Source of the DNA: an uncultured Clostridia bacterium
Lineage (GTDB): Bacteria > Bacillota > Clostridia > Oscillospirales > Oscillospiraceae
Assembly: GCA_947176425.1 (NCBI GenBank)
Contig: CAMWQV010000001.1
Coordinates: 1 to 49,794, forward strand
DNA length: 49,794 nt
Direction of reading: 5' to 3'
Below the pieces are notes generated by a model. The model searched no databases. It was not told the origin of the DNA and was given only the letters and a program-made list of their open reading frames with translations. A program made the translations under genes and the position numbers. Of the stretch, positions 5,098 through 45,525 are shown piece after piece. The first letter of the stretch is position 1. Each line of letters begins with the position of its first letter.

Positions 5098-7782
5098 TTA
5101 TGCTCTGAATGGCAGTTCCTCACCCTCACCATCAATGGGGTGGAATTGCTGTTGCTCCCACGCAGGCTGTGCGGCCCTGGCATCTGCCAGTTCCTCTGCG
5201 TCGTCTATGGGGTCTTCAGCCTTGGACAATTTCCCGATGTAGAACTCCACAAAGCGGCTACTCCGTGTACCGAACCACTTCATGACGGTGTAGGTTTTTC
5301 GGCCACCGCGCTCAGTGTAGGACGAAATTAAGTCTTTTTCGGCCATGTACTTCATGGTCTTCCGAGGGGAGTATCCCGCCTTCGTCAGCGCCTGGTTCAG
5401 CATGGAGGGGAAAATGTATGCGGTGTTGCCGGTTTCGCTGGTAAAGCCCAGACAGGTGCCCACGGTGTTGGGGCCGAAGTATGCCTTGTTCGACAGAACC
5501 CAGTCCACAATGAACTGCACCGCATTTTCGTTGACGTCGGTGGCGTTGCTCTCCACTTGGTTGACCAGGATGTCCGAGGCCATACGCTTGGCTGCGGCCC
5601 AGGAGTCCTCCCACTTCCCGCCGAAGAACCAGGTGTCGATGAGGGCGTCGGCCAGGGCCACAGCGGAGATGCCGGCGATGTGGGAGCCGTTCTTGCCCTC
5701 GCTGATGCCCCGGACATAGCCCTGCATTTCCTCATAAAACTCCACGATCCGGCGCTCATCCATCTGAAGGATTTTTTCGATAAAGGCTGGGCCAGCCCAG
5801 CCGCAGTCTGTGGCCGATTGCTGGTGCATGAGGGCGGCGTCCGCCTCATTGTCAAAGGGGCCGCCGTAGATTTCCAACACGCGGGTACTGACGCCTGTCT
5901 GCGTAGTTTCTGTGCTGAGAGGCTCCTCGCCAGTGGCCAGGGCCACGGTGCGCCATTGGTGAATGGTCTGGAGGCCCCCGCCCTTATTGCCGCGTATCTT
6001 CCCGGTGCCGCTGGCGATCATGTACACGATTTTCTCCAGCGCACCCTGATTGTTTCCGGCCAGCTGGCGCTCGTCGATGCCGAGGGGGAGGTCGCAGTAA
6101 AATGCCGCCGTCCGTTCCAAGCCCACCTGAGTGGCGTTAAAGCTGACCATGAGCCGCTCCGGGTCGCCCCAGGCGGAGAGGGCCGCCTTGAGGGCTGCGG
6201 TCTTGCCGCCCTTGGAGCCGCCCCAGTTATACACGAAGAATATCCGTTGCTTCACGATGCGGAGCAGCGGCGCCGCGAACCCTGCCGCCAGGATAAAGCG
6301 AAACTTCATCCGCGCCCGGTGGGGGGCCATGTGCTCCACCCACCGTTCCATGGTTCCGTTCTTACAGTAGGCCGCTGCCATGCCCCGCTGGGATGGGTCG
6401 ATGTCCAAGGTCAGGCCGTCATCGTGACCGGGCAGGAACCGCTTTCCCGGCTGCCAGCCGAAGGTGGATGTGGCGTCGTTCTTGGGGATCAGGTCGATGT
6501 TCTCGGCCTCCAGTGCCCCCAGGAAACTAACCACCCGCTTGGCATTTTCCGAAGTAACGGTGCAGCCCAGGTCGGCCAGAGTGGTGATTGACCGGCTGGA
6601 GAAGATGGTGGAGCGGGGGTAGATAGCGGTCTGCCACTGGCCGTCCCGCTTGAATGCCACTTCGATTTTCTCATCGCCCGTTTCCAGGCTCTTGAGGCGC
6701 TGTGTCAGGATGATGGGCGTCCGGCAGACGCCCACAGGGGTGTATGTCTTTTGGTCTATGGCGCTGATGCCCTTTTCTGAATAAATCCAGCCCTCCGGCT
6801 GCCGCAGGTTGATGGGCGCCCCTTCTATGGCCTCCGGGGTAAGCTGCGCATCCAGGTCTATCCGCTCCGCTTTCTTGAGGGCCTCCCTGATCAGCTGGGC
6901 GGCCTCCTCCTTGCCGTGCTTTATGTAGAGGTCGCTGGGATCTTTCGTGCCCAGGCGGTCACATGACCAAATGTAGACCTCCCCGGTGAACCCGCCTTCC
7001 TTCAGCCCCCGGAACATTTTAGTAGTGAAGGTTTCCCCGCCGCCGTCCGGCTCCTTGTGGATGTAGAGTTTCAACCCCTGGACGGTCGCCGCCTGGTAAG
7101 ACTTGAACATGGAGGCCCCGGCCACACCGATGGCGGGAAGGCCCATATACCACAGGCTTTGGGTATCGCTCTCACCCTCCACCAAAATGGCCCAGCCCAC
7201 CTTGCGGATCTCCGGGAGCCGCCACTCACCGTAAAGGCATATCTTCCCGGCGCTGCCCCGCTGCCAGCGGAACTCCTTCTTGCCGTACCGCTTTCGTGTG
7301 GCCGCCTGCTGGCCGTCCTCGGTAAAATAGGGCATCTGGAGACAGGTCAACCCGCCCCGCTCCTTTTTCGTGGTCACCCGGCAGGTTCCGGTGAGAAAGT
7401 CCACCGGGAGGTGCTTGTCAAAGCTGTACTGCTCCACACTGTAGGGCGCAAGGCCAGAGGCGGCGTCACCCTTCTGCTTTGCCGCGGGCCTCGACTGCTC
7501 CTGGGCCACCCCATACTTCGCCAGAATTTCCTTGTACGCCTGCTTGGTGTCGATGTTGTGGTACTTCGCCCAAAAGGTGATGAAGTTGCCGCCCTCATCC
7601 TCCGAAAAGCAGTGCCATTTCCCCGTTTTCAAATCCACCGAAAAGCTGTTCTGCTTGTCCCGGTGGAAGGGGCACAGGCCCACCAGGTTGTCCCCGGCTA
7701 TTTGGAATCTTTCAATGACGGCGGTGTACTCCGCCCGGTAGTCCACTACCCGGTCGAGGTCTACGTTATCTCTTGCCGCCAT
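5098..7782 (-). CDS. CHC2-type primase / DUF927 helicase
   Basis: N-term 'LCPFHRDKQNSFSVDLKTGKWHCFSEDEGGNFITF'; 'GWQPGKRFLPG...VYNWGGSKGGKTAALKAALSAWG...GNKGGGLQTIHQWRTVALATGEEPL' typical DUF927. Confidence 0.85.
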   Translation of the reverse strand: MAARDNVDLDRVVDYRAEYTAVIERFQIAGDNLVGLCPFHRDKQNSFSVDLKTGKWHCFSEDEGGNFITFWAKYHNIDTKQAYKEILAKYGVAQEQSRPAAKQKGDAASGLAPYSVEQYSFDKHLPVDFLTGTCRVTTKKERGGLTCLQMPYFTEDGQQAATRKRYGKKEFRWQRGSAGKICLYGEWRLPEIRKVGWAILVEGESDTQSLWYMGLPAIGVAGASMFKSYQAATVQGLKLYIHKEPDGGGETFTTKMFRGLKEGGFTGEVYIWSCDRLGTKDPSDLYIKHGKEEAAQLIREALKKAERIDLDAQLTPEAIEGAPINLRQPEGWIYSEKGISAIDQKTYTPVGVCRTPIILTQRLKSLETGDEKIEVAFKRDGQWQTAIYPRSTIFSSRSITTLADLGCTVTSENAKRVVSFLGALEAENIDLIPKNDATSTFGWQPGKRFLPGHDDGLTLDIDPSQRGMAAAYCKNGTMERWVEHMAPHRARMKFRFILAAGFAAPLLRIVKQRIFFVYNWGGSKGGKTAALKAALSAWGDPERLMVSFNATQVGLERTAAFYCDLPLGIDERQLAGNNQGALEKIVYMIASGTGKIRGNKGGGLQTIHQWRTVALATGEEPLSTETTQTGVSTRVLEIYGGPFDNEADAALMHQQSATDCGWAGPAFIEKILQMDERRIVEFYEEMQGYVRGISEGKNGSHIAGISAVALADALIDTWFFGGKWEDSWAAAKRMASDILVNQVESNATDVNENAVQFIVDWVLSNKAYFGPNTVGTCLGFTSETGNTAYIFPSMLNQALTKAGYSPRKTMKYMAEKDLISSYTERGGRKTYTVMKWFGTRSSRFVEFYIGKLSKAEDPIDDAEELADARAAQPAWEQQQFHPIDGEGEELPFRA

Positions 7783-18342: not shown

Positions 18343-18813
18343 ATGGCGATTGGGAAGAGAATTAAAGAAGCAAGGCTCAAAAAATCACTAACACAGGAAG
18401 AGCTTGCTAAAATAATCGGAGTGACTAAAGGCGCTATTGCCAACTATGAAAATAATACTAGTCACCCCAAAGAACCTGTCATGTATGCGCTTATTGATGC
18501 ACTCGGGGTTGATGCAAACTTTCTTTTTCAGGATTGTGTAAACATTTCACCAAAAGAAAAAGCCCCACTCTTTTCGAGTGAGGCAATGAAACTGGCAAAA
18601 GATTATGATGATCTGGATGAACACGGCCAGCGGATGCTCCGTCTGGTTGCAAACGAGGAAAAATCCCGTTACGCTGAACAGGCGCAGTCCAGCAAGGTTA
18701 TAAAGATTGCCGCCCGTGATGGACACTTTACAGAGATTCGCCTAACAGCTGATCAAATCAAGGGTTTGCAGGCATATATTGACCAGCTCCCCGAGCCTGG
18801 TGATGATTTATAA
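18343..18813 (+). CDS. CI/XRE-type phage repressor
   Basis: 'IGKRIKEARLKKSLTQEELAKIIGVTKGAIANYENNTSHPKEPVMYALIDALGVDANFLF'. Confidence 0.8.
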   Translation: MAIGKRIKEARLKKSLTQEELAKIIGVTKGAIANYENNTSHPKEPVMYALIDALGVDANFLFQDCVNISPKEKAPLFSSEAMKLAKDYDDLDEHGQRMLRLVANEEKSRYAEQAQSSKVIKIAARDGHFTEIRLTADQIKGLQAYIDQLPEPGDDL

Positions 18814-19362
18814 CTTATTTTCTTCTATGTAGGCTGCGAACTGCCGGTACACCTCCCGCTCCAATGGTGAGGAAAGAAATTTATTCCTTTTGTATAGCAC
18901 CTCCATCCGGTCCGCCCGGAACTGCGCCGCCTTATGGCTGATGCCGCACAGCGCCGCAATCTGTTCTGATGTTTTAGCCCCGCAGCCCCACAGGACGCAG
19001 GCCGGGGCGAGCAGTCGGCTTGCAAATACATTTGCCGCCTGCTCTATCGGGCTATCGTTTTGGCTTGGTTCCCGATTGACTAATTTATACTTTCCTACAT
19101 GACCCAGCAAAATATGTCCTAATTCATGTGCCGCAGTAAACCGCTGACGCGGCAATTGTATTTTACTGGATACCATAATTATCGGTGCGTTCTCTACTAT
19201 AAGGCTCTTTCCGTCGTTTTCATCCGCCGGCACATAGAGTTTAATTGTAATGCCCAGCGTTTTGCAAATCCTCCCTATTTGTATCGGCAATTTTTTAATA
19301 TTTTGGTCAATCAGCAGCTTCCATGTTGCGTCTCTTGCATTTTGATAGTCTATAAAGCGCAT
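18808..19362 (-). CDS. ImmA/IrrE-family metallopeptidase
   Basis: 'RQRFTAAHELGHILLGH' HExxH motif. Confidence 0.85.
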   Translation of the reverse strand: MRFIDYQNARDATWKLLIDQNIKKLPIQIGRICKTLGITIKLYVPADENDGKSLIVENAPIIMVSSKIQLPRQRFTAAHELGHILLGHVGKYKLVNREPSQNDSPIEQAANVFASRLLAPACVLWGCGAKTSEQIAALCGISHKAAQFRADRMEVLYKRNKFLSSPLEREVYRQFAAYIEENKL

Positions 19363-21596: not shown

Positions 21597-22793
21597 ATGG
21601 CTCGACCGAAAAAACCGACCTATGGATTTGTCGCAAGCCGAGGCGAGTACAGAAAGCGGATCAAGGGGCCGGATGGACGGCGAATCTCTCTCTATGCCAA
21701 GACGCCGGAGGAGCTGACAGAGAAGATTGCCGCTGTCCAGCGGGAGATTGAGGAGGACACCTACCACCGGGAGAACCCCACCGTGGAGGAGTATGCCACC
21801 AAGTGGCTAACCATGCACGGCTCCCATGTCCGCACAACCACCCTTGTGGACTACACCTCCAAGGTGAAGATCTATATCATCGAGCCGCTGGGGAAAAAGT
21901 ACATGGCCGAGGTCACCCCGGACGATGTGAAGATGGCCATCGGTAAGGCCGCAGCGCAGTCAGCCTCGATTTACCGGGGCGTGCAGATGCTCTACAAGAT
22001 GATCTTCAGCTCGGCGCTGGAGAGCCATATCATAGACGAGTCGCCGTGCAAGAACCTCAACCCCAAAGGCGGCAAAACCCCGAAGGAAAAGAAGGCCCTC
22101 ACCGATGAGCAGGTCACCACCCTTTTGGACGCGGTTCGGGGGCTGCCGCCTTACCCATTTATCATGCTGTGCCTTTACTCTGGCCTGCGCCGGGAGGAAG
22201 CTCTTGCCCTCCAATGGGACAGCGTCTTCTTGGACGGGGATGCGCCGCACGTCGTCGTCTGCCGAGCTTGGCACACAGAGCACAACCGGCCGGTGATCCT
22301 GACCGACCTTAAGACAAAGGCTGCCAAGCGAACAATCCCCATCCCGCCCCAGCTGGTGGAGTGCTTGAAGGATGTCAAGGAGAAGTCCACCTCAGACTTC
22401 GTGATTGCCAACCGGGACGGTGCCGCTTTGTCGGACACACAGTGGCGCCGGGTGTGGGGGTATGTGCGAACTCGCACCGTCAGGGAGCGGACGTACTACC
22501 GCTATGTCAACGGCCAGAAGATCCCGCACACCGTGACACCTGTCTTGGGGGAGCGGGCAGCCCACAACAGCGATGTGGTGTACAGCATTGACTTCGAGGT
22601 GACGCCCCACCAGCTGCGGCATACCTATATCACGAACCTGCTCCTGGCTGGCGTCGATGTCAAGACGGTGCAAGTGCTGGCTGGCCATGAGCACGCCAAG
22701 ATCACGCTGGACATCTACGCACACCTGACCTACAACCAGCCGAAGGATCTGATCTCGAAGGTCAACCAGGCATTTGCGAACAATCCAAAATAG
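21597..22793 (+). CDS. int: tyrosine recombinase / phage integrase
   Basis: 'SGLRREEALALQWDSV...TPHQLRHTYITNLLLAGVDVKTVQVLAGHEHAKITLDIYAHLT'. Confidence 0.92.
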   Translation: MARPKKPTYGFVASRGEYRKRIKGPDGRRISLYAKTPEELTEKIAAVQREIEEDTYHRENPTVEEYATKWLTMHGSHVRTTTLVDYTSKVKIYIIEPLGKKYMAEVTPDDVKMAIGKAAAQSASIYRGVQMLYKMIFSSALESHIIDESPCKNLNPKGGKTPKEKKALTDEQVTTLLDAVRGLPPYPFIMLCLYSGLRREEALALQWDSVFLDGDAPHVVVCRAWHTEHNRPVILTDLKTKAAKRTIPIPPQLVECLKDVKEKSTSDFVIANRDGAALSDTQWRRVWGYVRTRTVRERTYYRYVNGQKIPHTVTPVLGERAAHNSDVVYSIDFEVTPHQLRHTYITNLLLAGVDVKTVQVLAGHEHAKITLDIYAHLTYNQPKDLISKVNQAFANNPK

Positions 22794-22802
22794 CAGTTTT
22801 TA

Positions 22803-23085
22803 GGGTGCATACCGGGGTGCATTCCTAAAGCAAACCCGCAAAACACTTGAAAATAGGCGGTTTTTCTGGACAAAGCGCAAGAAGTACGGCCTCAAAGCCG
22901 CCCGTCGTGCGCCTCAGTTCTCCAAGCGTTGATATTCCTGCAAAACCCCGGAGCCGCAACGGTTCCGGGGTTTTTTCATGTAGCAAAGTCTGACAAAATG
23001 GAGCCAAGAAAAACAAAAATAATTGGGGTGCATCCGGGGTGCATTGGCCTTAAAACTGAGTTTTGGGGTGCATAGATGGGTGCAT
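22803..23085. other. putative attP (paired GGGTGCAT arm-type repeats flanking an rpsI 3'-end core)
   Basis: GGGTGCAT at 22803, 22815, 23026, 23037, 23066 and 23078; core 22876-22932 encodes RKKYGLKAARRAPQFSKR-stop. Confidence 0.75.
22946..22976 (+). terminator. intrinsic terminator after the rpsI-like 3' end
   Basis: CCCCGGAGCCGcaaCGGTTCCGGGG followed by TTTTTT. Confidence 0.75.
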
Positions 23086-23314
23086 TCAGGCTCCCAGTTT
23101 TTAACAAATTCAGCAGGTCTCCCGTGCTATACTCCGGCCATAAGGAGAGCGGCTTGATTAGGATTCAATGTCCATCGGGCTTGGCGGGCCTGGATGGGCG
23201 CGGGGGCTGTATATGGACAGAAAAGCAGAGAGGCCCGGCACGGCCTCCCTGCTCCAATAGAATATGCCCCTGCTCTCCCCTCCCCGGACGCTCAAGTGTC
23301 CGGGGCTTCTTCGG

Positions 23315-24146: not shown

Positions 24147-24359
24147 TTAGGCCCACCGCCGCCGGTAAGCCTTGATTTCTGGTCTGGCCTGGCGGGTAGC
24201 CCGCGCCAGGTACTCGGCGATGGCCTCATCGGTGATCCAGACCTTGCAACTGGGTTTCCGCTGTATGTAGGCCAGTCGGCCGGCGCTCCGCTCCTGATCC
24301 AGCAGGTCAACGGATATTCCCAGCTTTGCCGCTGCCTCTTTACGGGTCATCAGCGTCAT
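24147..24359 (-). CDS. excisionase-like HTH protein, copy 2
   Basis: Strongly similar to 16640-16861 ('MTLMTRKEAAAKLGISVDLLDQERSAGRLAYIQRKPSCKVWITDEAIAEYLARATRQARPE'). Confidence 0.65.
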   Translation of the reverse strand: MTLMTRKEAAAKLGISVDLLDQERSAGRLAYIQRKPSCKVWITDEAIAEYLARATRQARPEIKAYRRRWA

Positions 24360-24372
24360 TTGAAATTCCTCC

Positions 24373-24475
24373 TTGAAAATCCAAGGAAGGTCTGATAGAA
24401 TGGATTTATCAAACCTCCTTGGTTTGGTGGCGAAGCAATCCGTGCATGTGGAAGTGGGCGGGTTGCTTCTTATTT
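24373..24475 (+). ncRNA. putative small plus-strand RNA unit, family copy A
   Basis: TTGAAA-17-TAGAAT, hairpin 24381-24422 and a terminator-like AAGCAATCC...GGGTTGCTT followed by a T-rich tract; shares about 45 bp with 43877-43930. Confidence 0.4.
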
Positions 24476-24655
24476 TTTGCCCGTTAATTCGCAGTAAAGG
24501 CGATTTACCATTTCTTCCAAAAGGATAGTTTGGGTTTTTCCGGTCAGTTCAGAACATTTTCGCAGACGATCAACGGTTTTCTCTGTAGCTCTTAATGCTA
24601 TCCGCTTGTTTTTTGGTTCCTCTCCTGTGATTGGGCGTCCAGTCCGTGGACTCAA
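24470..24655 (-). CDS. ribbon-helix-helix-like regulator
   Basis: 'NKRIALRATEKTVDRLRKCSELTGKTQTILLEEMVNRLYCEL'; TTG start with SD AGGAGGTG. Confidence 0.55.
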   Translation of the reverse strand: MSPRTGRPITGEEPKNKRIALRATEKTVDRLRKCSELTGKTQTILLEEMVNRLYCELTGKK

Positions 24656-24673
24656 ATTTACACCTCCTTTTAC

Positions 24674-24886: not shown

Positions 24887-25084
24887 ATGAAAAGCTATTC
24901 CTCCCGAGAGGTTATCCAGATACTCATAGCAGATGGTTGGTATGAAATCGCTTGTGTCGGTGACCACCACCAATTCAAGCATCCGACCAAACCCGGAAAA
25001 GTAACTGTGACACATCCTCGAAAAGACATTCCCCTCCGAACACTAAAAAGCATAGAACGGCAAGCGGGGCTGAAATTCCAGTAA
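24887..25084 (+). CDS. hicA: HicA-family toxin, system 1
   Basis: 'MKSYSSREVIQILIADGWYEIACVGDHHQFKHPTKPGKVTVTHPRKDIPLRTLKSIERQAGL'. Confidence 0.85.
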   Translation: MKSYSSREVIQILIADGWYEIACVGDHHQFKHPTKPGKVTVTHPRKDIPLRTLKSIERQAGLKFQ

Positions 25085-25118
25085 GCCCCGCCCTCTATGA
25101 CAGAAAGGAGTTTCATAA

Positions 25119-25526
25119 ATGTATCCTAACAACTACGAATTTCCCGCTTTTTTCTATTATGACGATGATGGGATTTCGATTGAATTTCCCGACCTTCCCG
25201 GTTGTCTGCCTTATGCGCAAACCTCGGAGGAGGCATTTCACAATGCGAAAGAGGCTCTTGGACTGCATTTATTCGGTATGGAGCAAGATGGTGACACCAT
25301 TCCTTCTCCCACCCCCGTCAAGGAACTGCGGCCCGATGACGGGGCGGTCATCGCTATGGTCGAAGTGTTTATGCCCTCCGTCCGTGACCGAATCAACAAG
25401 AAAACGGTCAAAAAGACCTTGACTCTACCCGCTTGGCTAAACCGCGAAGCGGAGGCCGCTAATGTAAACTTTTCTCTAATTCTGCAAGAAAGTCTAAAGC
25501 GGTATCTTGGAAAGGCCGGGGAGTAA
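25119..25526 (+). CDS. hicB: HicB-family antitoxin, system 1
   Basis: 'FYYDDDGISIEFPDLPGCLPYAQTSEEAFHNAKEALGLHL' plus C-terminal RHH-like region. Confidence 0.85.
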   Translation: MYPNNYEFPAFFYYDDDGISIEFPDLPGCLPYAQTSEEAFHNAKEALGLHLFGMEQDGDTIPSPTPVKELRPDDGAVIAMVEVFMPSVRDRINKKTVKKTLTLPAWLNREAEAANVNFSLILQESLKRYLGKAGE

Positions 25527-39175: not shown

Positions 39176-42100
39176 CTATACCAAAGCGCGCCGCATTGCA
39201 TCGGCATCCCTGTCCTCCAGGACATCCACGACCCGATCCACAATATCGTCCGCGAACTCCCGCAGGTCCTGAACCGTTTCCTGGGTGGCGCTGCCCCCGA
39301 TCTGGAACGTCACCTGAACAGGACCGGCGGCAACCCGGGAGCCCCCGCCAGCGGCCAGCTTTGCGGAAACCGCAGGCTCCGCTTTGGCTTGCAGCGCGGA
39401 TGTCTGTGCAGCATTCAGCACCTTCTCGCCGCCATTGAAGAACATCAGTTCCGGACCGTTCTCGCCCACCATGGCCCAGCCGGGCTGCGCGTCCTCCGTC
39501 CCGCTGGCATAGCCGCGGCGGGGACGGTTTTTGTCCAGTACGCGATTGCTGTAGGACACAGGTCCCATGGAATTGAATGCAGCGAGAGCAATCGTTTGAT
39601 AGCCAGACTGCACCTGGGGCAACATATCGTTCACTGCGTTGATATAGCCCTGAATGGTGGCTCGTCCCGCTTCTATGGCCTCGTCGCTCAGGTCCATGGC
39701 CTCAATGTCTGCGGCAAGCTCCTGCTGCAGCTCGTCCATTTGGTTGGAGAAATCTGTTTTCAGGTCCGCTATGCTCTGAGAGGCATCCGATTGAGCCTGC
39801 TGCAGCTCCTGCCAGTTTTCCACCATGGCCGCAAGGTCTTTATCGCTGGCGCTGGCCATACCCGCAATCGCGTTTACGCTGTCCGTACTCCCATCGGCAA
39901 AGCTGGCAATCACATCGCCTAGACCTTCAATATCAGCTGTCCGCTCCCGCAGGGATTCCAGATTTTGATTGTAGTTGTCCCAATAGGTGATCTGGCTCTC
40001 CAAGGCGCTGTTGATGCTCCCGGCACTGGTAGCAACCACCTTGTCCGCTTCATCCCAAAGGGCATACTGCCCCTGAATGGATTCCAGGGCCGCATTGTAG
40101 GCATCGTTATAGGCCTCTGCAAGCCCTGCTATCCGCTCGGCGGTCGTTTCAATGACCCCTTGCAGCTCCTGGGTCTGCCGGGCGGCCTCGGCCTCCGCTT
40201 CGGTCTGCGCCCCGGTCACGCCGGTGAGGCGTTCATACGCTTCCTGGGTGTCATTCAGCACTGCTTCCGCTTCCGCAAGCGCCTCGTTATCCTTTTCTAC
40301 GGCCTCGGTGTAAGTCCTGACCGCATCAACAGCGTCAAGCATTTCGCTGTTGTAGCCAAGTAGGGCGTCCTGCAGCTGGTAATACTCCGCCTGCTCCTCA
40401 TTGGTCAAAGCAGCGCCTTTGCTTTCCAGCTCGTTCATCCGCGCCAGGCCGGCCTCTCTGGCCTTCTCTATTTTTTCCAGCTTGATTTCGGCCTCAGTGA
40501 GCTTGAGGGAGTTGGCGGCTGATTCCGTCATGACCTCGTTGTACTGGCCCATCACGCCATTCATGTACTCCTGGTACGCCTGCGCTTCGGACTTCTTTTT
40601 CCATGCCTCGGTCTGGCTGCGCAGGGCCTCGGTGCCGCCCTCAATCGCGCCGGTTTCCAGGTTCACATATTCGGTCAGCTCCGGCAGAGCATTGCAGAGC
40701 AGAGACAGCGTATTGAGGTAGGCGCGGCTGTGCTCATCGGAGGCGTCGGTCCCCTCGCCCAGCTCCTCCAGCTTGGCGATATAGGTTTCCGCCGCCTGTG
40801 CCACGGCAAGGGTCTGGTTTGCTGTCTGATTATAGGCGGCGCCAGCATCGTCCATGGCGTCCTTCATGTCACGGGTGGCCTCTGTCAGCTCTTTCACAGC
40901 GGGCCCGCCGTCATTGGCGGCAGTGACCAGCCCCACCACTGCGGCGGTCAGGCCCGCCACAGCGGCGGCTCCGCCCAGGATCGCGCCCGCCGGTCCGGTG
41001 AACAGCGCCGCAACATTAAGGGCTTGAAATACCTTCATGGCGGCGCTTGCCCCAGTGATGGCTACCGTGGCGGCCCCCATTGCTCCGGTAAAGGTCATCA
41101 CACCTTTGACCAAAGCAGGATGCTCCTGCACAAATTCGTTGACCCAAGTGAGTACATCGGTGCCGATCTCAGCCGCCCTGCGCAGTTCCGGATTGAACTC
41201 CTCCCCGATGGTGGTTCTCAGCGCATCCCAGGCGGAGTTCATCAGGGTCAGCTGGCCGTTCAGATTGTCCAGCTTGACCGCCGCCATGCGCTGGGCCGCG
41301 CCGGTGCAATTGTCAATGCTGAGGGCCAGGGAAGAAAAATCCTCCTCAGTGGCATTGAGAATAGCCAGCAGGCCGTTGTATCCGCGCTGCCCCGCCAGGG
41401 CCATGGCGTTGTTCACCCGTTCGGCCTCGGTCATCTCCATGAACACGTCCCGCAGCTCCTCTATGGTTTCCATGAAGTTCTTCATAGTACCATCCGCTTT
41501 GATCGCTGTGAAATCATATTCACCAAAGGCCGCGCCGGTCAGGGTGACACCCTCCAGCAGGCCGTTGAAGGTGTTCTTCAATGCCGTGCCGGCGATGCTG
41601 CCCTTAACACCGGCATTGGCCATGAGGCCCACAGCCACGGCTACATCTTCGATGTTGTAGCCCAAAGCTCCGGCGATGCTGGCCGATTGCTTGAACGTCT
41701 CGCCCATAATGCTGACGTTGGTATTGGAGTTGGTAGCCGCCGCCGCCAAAACATCCGCAAAATGAGCTGTATCCGACGCAGCCAGGCCAAAGGCGGTCAA
41801 GTTGTCGGTGACGATATCACTGACCATCGCCAGGTCTTCACCGGAGGCCGCAGCGAGCTGGATCACACCGTCCATGCCGGACATCATCTGCTGTGCATTC
41901 CAGCCGGCCATTGCCATATACCCCATGGCGTCGGCGCTCTCTTTGGCGGTAAACTTGGTAGTTGCGCCCAGCTCCTTGGCCTCCGCCGTCAGAGCCGCCA
42001 TCTCCTGAGCATTGGCTTGAGACAGCGCCTCCACGGTGGACATGGCTTCCTCAAAGTCGCCAGCGACTCCGACGCACTCCAGAAAGGCGTCCGTGATCTC

Positions 42101-42676
42101 CTTCAGCGCCATCGCCACGCCGGCGGTGGCGACAGCCTGTCCCGCTGCCTCGAAGGCTTGAACGGTCTGTTCTCCGAAGCTGGCGGCACCCTGGGCCGCC
42201 CGGTCCTGCTCCTCCTGGAGCTCCTTGATTCTGGCGGTCAGTTCTTGGTCCTTCTGGGCCAAATTCGCCGTGTCCACCCCGGCCTCTTTCAGTTTCGCGC
42301 CGGTGGTCTGGAGCTTTTGGTTCTGCCGTTCCAGGGCCGTTTCGGTGTCCTTGATACGCTGTTCCAGCTTAACCTTTTCCCGTTCCAGTCCGGCAATTGT
42401 GGCAGCATCATGTTCTTCAGCATTCCGCGCTGCCTTGATCTGCTCAATCAGAAGCGCTTCCTGCTGTCTCAGGTTGTCCAGCTTAGCTGTGGTATTTTGG
42501 ACTGCCGCCTGTTGCTTCTGGAAAGAGCTGATATCGCCCTGGAGCCGGTGAAGGTCCTGAATCTCTTTGCCCAGACGGGAGAACTCCGCCTGGGCCTTGG
42601 AGAAGGTTCCGCTGAAACCGCCGTTCATTCTGGCGTTTAAGGCAAACAACATCTCATAGGTTTTCGCGGTAGCCAT
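39176..42676 (-). CDS. tail tape measure protein (TP901-type)
   Basis: 1166 aa; coiled N-terminus; 'ELGATTKFTAKESADAMGYMAMAGWNAQQMMSGMDGVIQLAAASGEDLAMVSDIVTDNLTAFGL'. Confidence 0.92.
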   Translation of the reverse strand: MATAKTYEMLFALNARMNGGFSGTFSKAQAEFSRLGKEIQDLHRLQGDISSFQKQQAAVQNTTAKLDNLRQQEALLIEQIKAARNAEEHDAATIAGLEREKVKLEQRIKDTETALERQNQKLQTTGAKLKEAGVDTANLAQKDQELTARIKELQEEQDRAAQGAASFGEQTVQAFEAAGQAVATAGVAMALKEITDAFLECVGVAGDFEEAMSTVEALSQANAQEMAALTAEAKELGATTKFTAKESADAMGYMAMAGWNAQQMMSGMDGVIQLAAASGEDLAMVSDIVTDNLTAFGLAASDTAHFADVLAAAATNSNTNVSIMGETFKQSASIAGALGYNIEDVAVAVGLMANAGVKGSIAGTALKNTFNGLLEGVTLTGAAFGEYDFTAIKADGTMKNFMETIEELRDVFMEMTEAERVNNAMALAGQRGYNGLLAILNATEEDFSSLALSIDNCTGAAQRMAAVKLDNLNGQLTLMNSAWDALRTTIGEEFNPELRRAAEIGTDVLTWVNEFVQEHPALVKGVMTFTGAMGAATVAITGASAAMKVFQALNVAALFTGPAGAILGGAAAVAGLTAAVVGLVTAANDGGPAVKELTEATRDMKDAMDDAGAAYNQTANQTLAVAQAAETYIAKLEELGEGTDASDEHSRAYLNTLSLLCNALPELTEYVNLETGAIEGGTEALRSQTEAWKKKSEAQAYQEYMNGVMGQYNEVMTESAANSLKLTEAEIKLEKIEKAREAGLARMNELESKGAALTNEEQAEYYQLQDALLGYNSEMLDAVDAVRTYTEAVEKDNEALAEAEAVLNDTQEAYERLTGVTGAQTEAEAEAARQTQELQGVIETTAERIAGLAEAYNDAYNAALESIQGQYALWDEADKVVATSAGSINSALESQITYWDNYNQNLESLRERTADIEGLGDVIASFADGSTDSVNAIAGMASASDKDLAAMVENWQELQQAQSDASQSIADLKTDFSNQMDELQQELAADIEAMDLSDEAIEAGRATIQGYINAVNDMLPQVQSGYQTIALAAFNSMGPVSYSNRVLDKNRPRRGYASGTEDAQPGWAMVGENGPELMFFNGGEKVLNAAQTSALQAKAEPAVSAKLAAGGGSRVAAGPVQVTFQIGGSATQETVQDLREFADDIVDRVVDVLEDRDADAMRRALV

Positions 42677-42738
42677 AAAACACCCCCCTCCTGGAATAGA
42701 AAACGGCCCAAGGCATTTTGGCCTTGAACCGTTTCAAA

Positions 42739-43257
42739 TTATTGCTTTTTCTTCTTGTCTGTAAAAACTTTTTTGCTATTCTCTGACCGTGTAATCCATC
42801 GGCAGTTATCAGGAGAGTAGCCCTTGTCATTGTCAATGCGGTCAATCGTCAGGTCATCGCGGTAACCGTTTGCAAGTGCCCATTTTCGGAATGCTTCATA
42901 GCTTTTTTCCCATTCAGCACATACAAAAATTCCACGTCCACCATACCGATTGTAGCGTTTATTTGACGGGTACTTACACCGTGCTCTCATGTCGTTATAA
43001 ATTCGATACAATCGGCTTGTTCTGGAATCCCCATGTGTGCGCCGGGAGGCAGGTAAGGTATTTTTTCTGACGCATCCGCAATTTGTAGAGTTGCCAGACC
43101 GAAGATTTTTGCCCAAAACTAAAGCAGTATTTCCACAGTCGCATCGACAAAGCCATTTAGTGTCTCTACTTCCGCATGGAGCAATGTACACTGAATCTAC
43201 ACCCATCACCACCAGCCTCCCGAACCGCTGGCCCGTCAGGTCAATCAGTTTGCCCAT
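42739..43257 (-). CDS. HNH/homing-type endonuclease-like protein with N-terminal zinc knuckle
   Basis: 'LTGQRFGRLVVMG...WLCRCDCGN...NCGCVR...RIYNDMRARCKYPSNKRYNRYGGRGIFVCAEW...LTIDRIDNDKGYSPDNCRW'. Confidence 0.65.
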   Translation of the reverse strand: MGKLIDLTGQRFGRLVVMGVDSVYIAPCGSRDTKWLCRCDCGNTALVLGKNLRSGNSTNCGCVRKNTLPASRRTHGDSRTSRLYRIYNDMRARCKYPSNKRYNRYGGRGIFVCAEWEKSYEAFRKWALANGYRDDLTIDRIDNDKGYSPDNCRWITRSENSKKVFTDKKKKQ

Positions 43258-43644
43258 ATCTCGCCCCCGCTAAGGTCTCCTTCCCATATTTGCGGATAAG
43301 GTCATGGGTAAATAGAGCAACAGCAAAGTAGTTTGCCTCTGATTCTGCAAAATCGGGATATTGGTCATAGACCGACTGCCGATAGTCTAGATGGCCGAGC
43401 AGAATATGGCCAAGTTCATGGGCGATAGTAAATCGGGTCTCTTCCGTCCGGCACCCGTCCCTGAAAAGAATCACATAGGTTCCGTCCGTTGCTTTGAAAG
43501 TGATTCCCGGTGTTCTACTCAAATCGAGCCCAATCTTTTTGCCGCTTTTGGGGAACTCGCATAAGAGGAGACTCGGATGCCGTAGTCCTCACAGATTTTA
43601 TTGAAATCGATTTTCCCGAAAAGATCTTTTTTGCCATCAACCAT
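43241..43644 (-). pseudogene. ImmA/IrrE-family protein requiring a -1 frame change
   Basis: ORF from 43522 contains 'TRFTIAHELGHILLGH'; in-frame start MVDGKKDLFGKIDFNKICEDYGIRVSSYAS at 43644 runs to a TGA, and frame changes at CCCAAAA. Confidence 0.6.
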
Positions 43645-43867
43645 ATGTAATCCCTCCATTCATATCACGATACTTAGGCCCGACGCTGCCGATATGCTTT
43701 TTTTGTTTGGCTCTGCGCTCTTTGAGCCATGCTTGGTAGCGCTCCTCTGCTCCCGGCATCGAAAAGACCTGTTCGGTCAGTGCCAGCGCGCCTTTCGCAA
43801 GTTCAATGCGCCGAAAATCTGGGATAGACGCGACATCAATGCTCAGCGTGGGATTTTTATTTTTCAT
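43637..43867 (-). CDS. small hypothetical protein coupled to the ImmA-like gene
   Basis: Stop overlaps the start of the downstream ImmA-like frame (ATATGGTTGA). Confidence 0.5.
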   Translation of the reverse strand: MKNKNPTLSIDVASIPDFRRIELAKGALALTEQVFSMPGAEERYQAWLKERRAKQKKHIGSVGPKYRDMNGGITYG

Positions 43868-43876
43868 GAAACCTCC

Positions 43877-43978
43877 TTGAAAATTCCCGGGAGGTCTGAT
43901 AGAATGGATTTATCAAACCTCCCTGGTTTGGTGTAATAGGGTGTTGGTGTGGTTTGCAAGGCCGCCAACACTCTATTT
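43877..43978 (+). ncRNA. putative small plus-strand RNA unit, family copy B
   Basis: TTGAAA-17-TAGAAT, hairpin 43886-43926, terminator-like GTGTTGG...CCAACAC then T-rich tract. Confidence 0.4.
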
Positions 43979-44056
43979 TTATTCTGCTGTTAAGGTACAT
44001 ATATGTAAAGGGGCGGACTGTTTTCCCCGAACCGTGTGGGTGGCCCACGGTCATTA

Positions 44057-44161
44057 TTGTACACCGTTTAGTTTACTATGTCCATTGTCAGATACACCAA
44101 ATAGTGTACTTTCTTTTCGTTTATTTTGTACATTGATTAGTTTACTATTTTCCCCTATAAT
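44057..44161 (+). promoter_or_regulatory. promoter/operator of the XRE-GIY-YIG operon
   Basis: TTGATT-17-TATAAT (44133-44161); direct repeats TTGTACAnnGnTTAGTTTACTAT at 44057 and 44126. Confidence 0.6.
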
Positions 44162-44190
44162 ACAATCTATCAAAAGAAGAAGGTGGTTAC

Positions 44191-44427
44191 ATGTCTGCGT
44201 CCTCAGCAATTCGTCAGCGGTTAAGGGATATCAATATGTCACAAACACAATTAGCAGAGGCTCTAGGAACCAATAAGCAAAATTTAGGAAATAAATTGAG
44301 AAGAGACAATTTTTCTGCCCAAGAATTGGCAAGTATTTGCAAAATTATCGGCCTAAAGTTGACTATGATTGAAAGTGAACCGGGGAAATACGTTATTGAA
44401 TATGACAGCTCCAACGGGGGAGATTGA
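44191..44427 (+). CDS. XRE-like HTH regulator
   Basis: 'IRQRLRDINMSQTQLAEALGTNKQNLGNKLRRDNFSAQELASICKIIGLKLTMI'. Confidence 0.75.
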   Translation: MSASSAIRQRLRDINMSQTQLAEALGTNKQNLGNKLRRDNFSAQELASICKIIGLKLTMIESEPGKYVIEYDSSNGGD

Positions 44428-44429
44428 TT

Positions 44430-44933
44430 ATGGAGCGAGTCTACATTTTCGATTTCGGTGACAAAATCAAGGCTGGATATTCAACCAATGTACAAAAACG
44501 ACTCAGAACAATTGAACTTTCATCGGGTGTCAAAGCCAAACAGATATACAGTGTTGCGGCGGGGCGAAAAAAAGAAAAACTGTTGCATAGTTGGCTTGAT
44601 AACCGCTTGGAGGGAGAATTTTTTGCCTTTCCATTTACAGATGCAAAAGAGCTTTTAGACAAGATTGCCAACGGAGAAATCACAGATCCGCCAAATCAAC
44701 CAGTATTTCCCATAAAGCAAGGACATATGTCATACCAAAAACTTTTCTCTCTAATGGCAGAAAAAGGGATTAAAAAGTACGACCTTCGCAAAATGGGGAT
44801 ATCGCCAACCATTGTTGACCGCCTAGTAAAAAACAGCGATGTGAACACATCAACAATCATGCGGTTGTGTGAAATCCTTGATTGCCAACCAGGAGACATC
44901 ATGGAATATGTGGAGGACGAAGCGGGGAATTGA
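44430..44933 (+). CDS. GIY-YIG (T5orf172/Mug113-like) domain fused to C-terminal XRE-type HTH
   Basis: 'RVYIFDFGDKIKAGYSTNVQKRLRTIE...EKLLHSWLDNRLEGEFFAF' then 'MAEKGIKKYDLRKMGISPTIVDRLVKNSDVNTSTIMRLCEILDCQPGDIMEY'. Confidence 0.65.
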   Translation: MERVYIFDFGDKIKAGYSTNVQKRLRTIELSSGVKAKQIYSVAAGRKKEKLLHSWLDNRLEGEFFAFPFTDAKELLDKIANGEITDPPNQPVFPIKQGHMSYQKLFSLMAEKGIKKYDLRKMGISPTIVDRLVKNSDVNTSTIMRLCEILDCQPGDIMEYVEDEAGN

Positions 44934-44947
44934 TTCCCCGCTTTCGC

Positions 44948-45136
44948 TTATTTACTAGCGGCCTCCTTCTCCTCAGCTACCACGATGTTATTGGCCTTGA
45001 TCCACTGGCGCAGTTTCCAAAGCGGAAGTGTCAGCCAAAATGGTATTGGAGTGTTGTTGTTCCGCGCCAGGATTATGCACTGTTTCTGGAGCCATAACCC
45101 TCCGTCGCCGGTTACGACCCCGACCGCAGCAAAAAA
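44948..45136 (-). CDS. -1 frameshift extension of tail assembly chaperone
   Basis: Slippery T TTT TTG (45130-45136, minus strand); -1 frame open to TAA at 44948: AAVGVVTGDGGLWLQKQCIILARNNNTPIPFWLTLPLWKLRQWIKANNIVVAEEKEAASK. Confidence 0.7.
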   Translation of the reverse strand, partial: FFAAVGVVTGDGGLWLQKQCIILARNNNTPIPFWLTLPLWKLRQWIKANNIVVAEEKEAASK

Positions 45137-45525
45137 CGCCGGGCACTCATGTAGATGTTCTGATAGTCTCGGATAGGCAGCGCCCGGAGCATATCCGCGT
45201 CCACGATGCGGATACCGTTGTCATCCCGGTTGGTGCAGGCCCGAACAGCCATGCCCGCCAGGAATGCCCCAGTGAGTGCAGGCACCACCAGCGTCTTGCC
45301 GTGGCGGAGCATATCATCTTCGACGGCCTCGAAATCCTTGCCCGTCAGCTCACCCCAGTTAAAAGACAGCTCCGTGACCGTGTGCCCCCGGAACTGGAAC
45401 GGTTCTTTGAAGGTGTGCGTGTAAGTCATGACATCCGGCTCAGCCTTTGCCGCTTTTTCCAGCGCAGTGGCGGCCTCTGCCGCAGCCTCCAATACAGTGA
45501 TGTCGGTTTTCTCCTCAGGACTCAT
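45112..45525 (-). CDS. tail assembly chaperone (unshifted product)
   Basis: Acidic ORF between tail tube and tape measure; 'EPFQFRGHTVTELSFNWGELTGKDFEAVEDDMLRHG'. Confidence 0.75.
   Translation of the reverse strand: MSPEEKTDITVLEAAAEAATALEKAAKAEPDVMTYTHTFKEPFQFRGHTVTELSFNWGELTGKDFEAVEDDMLRHGKTLVVPALTGAFLAGMAVRACTNRDDNGIRIVDADMLRALPIRDYQNIYMSARRFLLRSGS

Follow-up and report, generated by a model that had tools for sequence, protein, structure and literature searches.

The island that separates the tail chaperone from the tape measure in this Clostridia phage is probably a homing-endonuclease accessory cassette, which bears both an HNH and a GIY-YIG nuclease together with its own repressor and has inserted between two tail-module genes. 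The nucleases and the mode of insertion are of known kinds; a multi-gene cassette combining an exchangeable repressor head with a shared, covarying leader was not found in Rfam or in the literature searched. That leader, a two-hairpin element preceding the minus-strand genes, was recovered by our covariance model R1 in about 45 distinct copies (E <= 1e-4) among the collected loci from Clostridia phages and genomes.

The window, i.e., the whole stretch of 49,794 nucleotides analysed here, is one entire contig (C1) of an incomplete metagenome-assembled genome and carries phage genes throughout, including replication genes, an integrase beside an att region at the rpsI end, lysis genes and a contractile-tail module encoded on the minus strand. 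The tail assembly chaperone lies at 45112-45525 (phrog_3140, minus), and in relatives this gene is followed by a -1 frame extension, E', with a slippery T6G sequence. E' ends at 44948-44950 in the window and the tape-measure gene (39176-42676, minus) starts at 42676, hence about 2.27 kb lie between them; the whole insert, as delimited from empty-site relatives, is 42677..44947. Since the chaperone protein retrieved nothing from viral contigs when used as a query, synteny was examined with the tube protein, in viral contigs with 76-92% tail-tube identity (L079, L081, L082, L083, L085 and L090). The junction is closed in all of these, the E' stop overlapping or nearly abutting the tape-measure start; the site is filled in the window and empty in these relatives. 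The island is a real insertion, located precisely between E' and the tape measure, as the initial annotation had supposed when it described a compact insert between two normally adjacent genes. The extent it gave, 42739-44933, holds for the genes, while the true insert reaches about 44947, just before the E' stop. No recognition site was identified at the insertion point, which counts against a homing cassette.

The division into two divergent units that was also proposed holds: HNH, ImmA-like and 76-aa genes lie on the minus strand, and an XRE regulator and a GIY-YIG-HTH fusion on the plus strand. The minus-strand unit runs from the leader through a 76-aa orphan ORF (43637..43867) and an ImmA-like gene (43241..43659) to the HNH gene (42739..43257). 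The latter has an intact reading frame and belongs to a large family of phage HNH endonucleases (phrog_374, 1e-58; PADLOC 'homing endonuclease', 1e-5). The suggestion of an ImmA-like protease is upheld as far as the domain is concerned, the C-terminal piece of this gene (43241-43522) matching the M78 profile PF06114 at 1.1e-8, but its frame is broken as assembled, with the N-terminus in a separate piece (43519-43659), and the island therefore holds no intact M78 protease of the kind expected of an ImmR/ImmA pair. The break resembles the loss of one base in a run of A and could have arisen either by mutation or during assembly. An intact 120-aa relative (62% identity) stands directly behind the same leader in L148, and the full-length ImmA of the phage itself is encoded outside the island (18808-19362, minus). 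PADLOC matches of the ImmA-like piece concern generic M78 domains (RmrA, capP). Assignment of the island to a PADLOC defence system was rejected, the matches being scattered over single domains and none covering a component set. Searches for relatives of the 76-aa ORF in phages, in viral contigs and elsewhere in its own genome returned none. Near its 3' end, this ORF contains an A_AAA_AAG slippery run (43690-43700), after which the -1 frame would end in KAYRQRRA, resembling the end (KAYRRRWA) of an HTH_17 gene at 24.15 kb; the run may correspond to a programmed frameshift or to an indel.

On the plus strand, a 78-aa XRE-family (HTH_26) regulator (44191..44427; PF13443, 1.2e-6), in which profiles detect only an HTH and no cleavable repressor domain is evident, abuts the nuclease gene (44430..44933), its stop codon at 44425-44427 being followed by an ATG at 44430. 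The nuclease joins a GIY-YIG domain of the T5orf172/MUG113 type (PF10544, 4.9e-6, 27.4 bits against a curated cut-off of 20; PF13455, 1.5e-5) to a C-terminal HTH_26 domain (PF13443, 5e-17), and homing-endonuclease domains are found in both units when the phrog_374 match of the HNH protein is considered. Residues of the GIY-YIG active-site type (Tyr, Lys-x-Gly, Arg, Glu, His, Glu), presumably catalytic, are kept, Y5, K14, G16, R24, E49, H53 and E63 being invariant across five aligned homologues. In an AlphaFold model the nuclease part reaches a pLDDT of about 90, and BFVD matches of this model include many viral T5orf172/GIY-YIG proteins at E <= 1e-3; the part is hence predicted to adopt the GIY-YIG fold. 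The invariant active-site pattern, as well as an HNH gene that is both intact and recurrent, speaks against reading the island as an ordinary regulatory moron, in which the nucleases would be inactive passengers and the cassette would be kept for its DNA-binding regulators. We consider that reading unlikely, notwithstanding the broken ImmA-like gene and the many leader cassettes whose cargo is limited to small DNA-binding proteins, Rha/Ant-type anti-repressors or DUFs, all of which would suit it.

L012 and L050 likewise have an XRE gene followed by a GIY-YIG gene. The C-terminus of the nuclease varies among relatives, being HTH_17 in L050, an RHH-like tail in L055 and different again in others. 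The nuclease domain is matched in 7 of 401 genomes of the family, mostly weakly, and this rarity of the GIY-YIG/XRE head is a further argument against the homing-cassette reading. In the phage collection the GIY-YIG-HTH query matched by its HTH part only, no GIY-YIG relatives were found in plasmids, a viral scan with the nuclease alignment produced one fragment (L078), and searches at order and class level yielded mostly weak T5orf172 matches in other architectures.

The C-terminal HTH of the nuclease resembles VanUg (3tyr) as well as stand-alone XREs, with 52-64% identity to those of L014 and L016. A counter-competitor role of the protein is possible: the GIY-YIG nuclease would have captured the repressor HTH of rival cassettes or phages and would cut their operators. 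The stand-alone XRE of L016, which is of the fused-HTH kind, lies divergent to the same leader, and the DNA-binding domain of the nuclease differs between relatives, both of which would fit. So would the precedent of Odn from phage ICP1, a T5orf172 chimera that serves as an anti-satellite nuclease through the replication-origin-binding domain of its satellite (PMC8263062). Odn and the protein studied here both join a T5orf172 nuclease to a DNA-binding domain apparently derived from the regulator of another element; that of Odn is, however, a RepA-type origin binder with a demonstrated target, whereas for the HTH_26 fusion both a target and a recent capture are putative. Moreover, the operators of L016 do not evidently match those of the window in sequence, and self-targeting would have to be avoided. 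We give this proposal little credence.

A different use of the same parts had been put forward in the initial annotation, namely a self-controlled immunity, exclusion or anti-mobile-element switch. On this reading, the ImmA-like protease would inactivate the XRE regulator upon infection and thereby let the nuclease attack incoming DNA. In ImmR/ImmA regulatory pairs of the ICEBs1 type, a gene for an M78 metalloprotease-like protein lies close to an XRE gene. The island likewise has an M78 domain adjoining its XRE gene, but the two belong to different operons on different strands, the protease is of the short 120-aa form and frameshifted, and the 78-aa repressor has no evident cleavable domain. 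A weak PADLOC match of the GIY-YIG protein (PDC-S57, 7.8e-6) and the anti-satellite activity of Odn (PMC8263062) would favour the switch. Nonetheless, the parts occur separately, since ImmA-like genes stand behind the leader without XRE or GIY-YIG in L148 and L151, and no recurrent defence gene set was found, nor any PADLOC set. Leader-cargo-HNH cassettes also recur at other sites without ImmA or GIY-YIG. We thus consider an immunity switch very unlikely and retain the homing-endonuclease cassette as the preferred reading.

That the island has its own promoter and operators, as first noted, is in agreement with the arrangement of its intergenic region, where two promoter-like sites stand back to back: TGGACA-17-TACAAT (44084-44056, minus; 10/12 consensus) for the leader side and TTGATT-17-TATAAT (44133..44161, plus) for the XRE/GIY-YIG unit. 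Promoter-like sites number 7 in this region against 3.2 expected. Both of these sites overlap operator-like 23-bp direct repeats (44057-44079 and 44126-44148, 87% identical), of which a partial third copy lies at 44093-44110, a layout that would fit a single repressor acting on both units. Strong hairpins are found at both ends of the island. One, of 15 bp, is terminator-like with a poor U tract and lies past the HNH gene (42695..42740, minus; -22.8 kcal/mol, z -4.6, reached by 0/200 shuffles), and the other, also terminator-like, has 11 pairs and lies past the GIY-YIG gene (44919..44944, plus; z -4.1). The segment that separates the divergent promoter from the leader contains a peptide-like stretch, GHPHGSG[KN]TVRPF, conserved in the window (43933-44054, minus) and in L016 (about 880-990, minus), with a similar stretch in L012 (about 6750-6830). 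A small ORF or another structured element could account for it.

The leader of the island (43860..43978, minus) comprises hairpins P1 and P2, with loop AATCCATTC, and a Shine-Dalgarno sequence, AAGGAGG. The initial annotation had recognised that it is shared with a site at 24.37 kb, and a second copy is indeed present there (24356..24471, minus), similar over 69 bp (90% identity, E 4e-19); the number of copies recovered elsewhere shows that it is not private to these two sites. Both copies fold better than their shuffles (z about -2.8 and -3.2). Starting from this 69-bp similarity, a pattern search and subsequently the covariance model R1 were used to collect further copies. R1 was built from 13 well-aligned copies, with the structure taken from individual folds because MAFFT misaligned hairpin 1. 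It scores the island leader at 93.7 bits (E 1e-20) and the second copy at 101.7 bits (E 1e-22), its training possibly inflating the fit of the 13 copies though not that of copies found later. There are 12 pairs in hairpin 1 and 16 in hairpin 2, the latter closing a near-constant loop, AATCYATTM. Over these 28 pairs, 88.1% of the cells are paired, as compared to 34.6-45.9% when one arm is slid, and two-sided changes occur at 26 of the 28. Double-change cells number 351 against 103 in shuffles, and the covariation score is 0.62 against 0.175 when shuffled, a comparison inflated by related sequences, and against at most 0.163 when slid, a control that keeps relatedness; the effect is large. On this sequence evidence, the leader behaves as a structured RNA whose base pairs covary across divergent copies. 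Rfam 15 gave no match in the window at gathering threshold, none in the island at E <= 5 and none at the leaders of five further loci, and the leader was consequently rejected as a known Rfam family. R1 is not promiscuous, because 630 kb of control loci, most of them collected for unrelated purposes, contained a single weak match (E 0.02).

Among the 50 R1 matches listed, two look spurious or partial (L203 on the plus strand, and L235) and two pairs are duplicates. R1 recovered copies that the pattern had missed, in L151 (E 4e-18), two further ones in L221 and others in other genomes. In partial samples that each count the genome studied here, the leader is present in 7 of 101 genomes of the family, 5 of 148 of the class and 2 of 150 of the phylum. 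Weak R1 matches lie divergent to other XRE genes in L014, L021, L022 and L037 and are suggestive only; in L021, the XRE gene faces an HNH unit carrying a different hairpin. The variant of L022 (7077-7191), upstream of and divergent from the XRE gene, combines the usual hairpin-1 apex (CCGTGGAAAG) with a different hairpin-2 loop, which suggests a wider leader superfamily. A survey of human microbiomes lists 3161 candidate structured RNAs (PMC8040213), and the leader motif may be among them.

About 35 of 47 inspected leader copies are preceded by a gene of some 58 aa, mostly of the 'MSPRTGRP' ribbon-helix-helix (RHH) type, that ends within a few bases of the start of hairpin 1, its stop codon often falling inside the first hairpin-1 pairs. 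Past hairpin 2 comes a consensus Shine-Dalgarno. Pairing of the hairpin-2 3' arm with the Shine-Dalgarno region of its own copy is computed at a mean of -11.9 kcal/mol (32 distinct copies), the controls giving -4.8 with shuffled arms and -10.4 with the Shine-Dalgarno regions of other copies (0/100 in each control). As this complementarity exceeds both controls, the leader is plausibly an alternative-pairing translational switch, in which switching would follow from the computed complementarity. At -20.1, hairpin 2 is the more stable of the two pairings, and the Shine-Dalgarno would therefore be open by default. Conversely, the leader might act as a DNA feature only, through protein-binding palindromes or as a recombination hot spot, given that it marks cassette borders, recurs with exchangeable heads and consists of perfect hairpins, which can act in DNA too. 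We find this rather doubtful, since nearly all inspected copies have the leader immediately before a Shine-Dalgarno and in sense orientation, G-U pairs occur in the hairpins, and the 3' arm pairs more favourably with the Shine-Dalgarno region of its own copy than with that of another.

Leader copies belong to a recurrent class of cassettes made of a regulator head, the leader, one to three small genes and then often an HNH gene. Genes downstream of leaders code for HTH_17, ImmA-like proteins, Rha/Ant-type anti-repressors and small DUFs, and HNH genes of the same family end the cassettes of L079, L136, L200, L201 (twice), L203 and L221 as well as that of the window; in L055, a GIY-YIG gene takes the place of the terminal HNH. 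The mobility of the class is shown by L079, which is without the insert studied here and carries a 1.3-kb RHH-leader-gene-HNH cassette at a different junction; the two genes concerned overlap by some 10 bp in the window and in most relatives. Another leader cassette precedes the tube gene in L136, two are found in L201 and one in L203. The second cassette of the window has an RHH-type gene at its head (24476..24658, minus; phrog_876 'transcriptional repressor', 2.7e-7) and an HTH_17-type gene behind the leader (24147..24359, minus; PF12728 2.5e-7 in its L012 relative). In L012, the leader and HTH_17 gene are instead divergent from an XRE/GIY-YIG-HTH head, from which we infer that heads are exchangeable. 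The island departs from the common scheme in having a divergent XRE/GIY-YIG pair as its head, in place of the usual RHH gene of about 58 aa. Its exact five-gene set occurs only once, which is another point against homing; the expectation that the set would be met at other loci is borne out for its parts, XRE/GIY-YIG (L012, L050) and leader/ImmA (L148, L151). Several leader copies have neither HNH nor GIY-YIG within 2.5 kb, which also weakens the homing-cassette reading and implies that the leader is not strictly part of homing cassettes. A literature search for RHH, leader and HNH cassettes found nothing. The contigs L221 (8345-10163), L223, L201 and L047 each carry two or three leader cassettes, arranged in tandem or closely spaced, and a TnpB-like (IS200/IS605-type) gene lies downstream of one of the two leader copies of the viral contig L047 (1237-2352).

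In our estimate, the chances are evenly balanced that the leader founds a new cis-regulatory RNA family of gut Clostridia phages and mobile elements, acting as an attenuator-like switch amid a modular exchange of heads, leaders and cargo. The fate of the 3' arm of hairpin 2, which would either stay in its hairpin or block the Shine-Dalgarno, would be set by ribosomes that terminate on the RHH gene where hairpin 1 begins. The switch would have an autoregulated RHH (or XRE) gene on one side and, on the other, small accessory or homing-endonuclease genes.

Homing endonucleases and morons need to be quiet in the lysogen and available at infection. In the cassette studied here, the XRE regulator, and perhaps also the GIY-YIG-HTH protein, would bind the 23-bp repeats and repress both promoters. 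Translation would then be gated by the leader, the Shine-Dalgarno being free when hairpin 2 forms and shut off if its 3' arm pairs there instead. Once expressed, the HNH and/or GIY-YIG nuclease would cut phage DNA devoid of the cassette, as is known of their families, and repair would copy the cassette in. Each of these putative steps, namely repression, translational switching and cleavage with homing, finds support by analogy in the phage homing-gene literature.

Homing genes of phage T4 have hairpins that sequester the RBS, and I-TevI represses itself (PMC2988022). The window's cassette is like the free-standing seg/mob genes of T4 in its intergenic location beside essential phage genes, in its HNH and GIY-YIG families, in its hairpins at the RBS and in its putative self-repression of the I-TevI type (PMC2988022). 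Unlike them, its HNH gene comes last in a multi-gene cassette that has a dedicated repressor gene and a two-hairpin leader of about 45 copies; and whereas T4 hairpins sequester the RBS themselves, hairpin 2 only supplies an arm for a competing anti-Shine-Dalgarno pairing. Homing genes of the T5orf172 and HNH families are also known to adjoin terminase, tape-measure and other essential genes and to swap domains (PMC10448857). The cassette shares with these genes and HEG-islands the joining of T5orf172 to exchangeable DNA-binding domains, a location near tape-measure, terminase and structural genes, and the interchange of HNH and GIY-YIG at one place. The domains are, in contrast, mostly CapR/DUF723/DUF4397 zinc fingers in PMC10448857, and HTH_26, HTH_17 or RHH-like tails in the window and its relatives; the adjacent XRE gene likewise sets the cassette apart, and the bracketing of essential cargo seen in HEG-islands has no counterpart demonstrated here. 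If a single leader does serve dozens of otherwise different cassettes, it would show how gut Clostridia phages standardise this control. R1 provides a search handle with which to find and delimit accessory cassettes in poorly annotated phages.

The tail region around the chaperone is a hot spot for accessory genes (morons). In L097 (8977-11560), an unrelated and independent insert occupies the same chaperone/tape-measure junction and carries an AbrB-like gene and genes for a 288-aa DUF488-containing protein and a 278-aa protein, possibly a defence or toxin-antitoxin cargo. Opposite-strand HicA/HicB-like pairs lie at the tube/chaperone junction in L080, L093, L103, L104, L112 and L121, and such a pair is also found in the window at 24889-25526. 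Finally, the rpsI 3' end in the window (22874-23311) adjoins the integrase gene (21597-22793, plus), with phage genes on both sides, and in the related prophage L012 the corresponding region, 92% identical over 438 bp, lies beside a complete rpsI. One possibility is that the contig contains attP and represents a non-integrated form of the phage.
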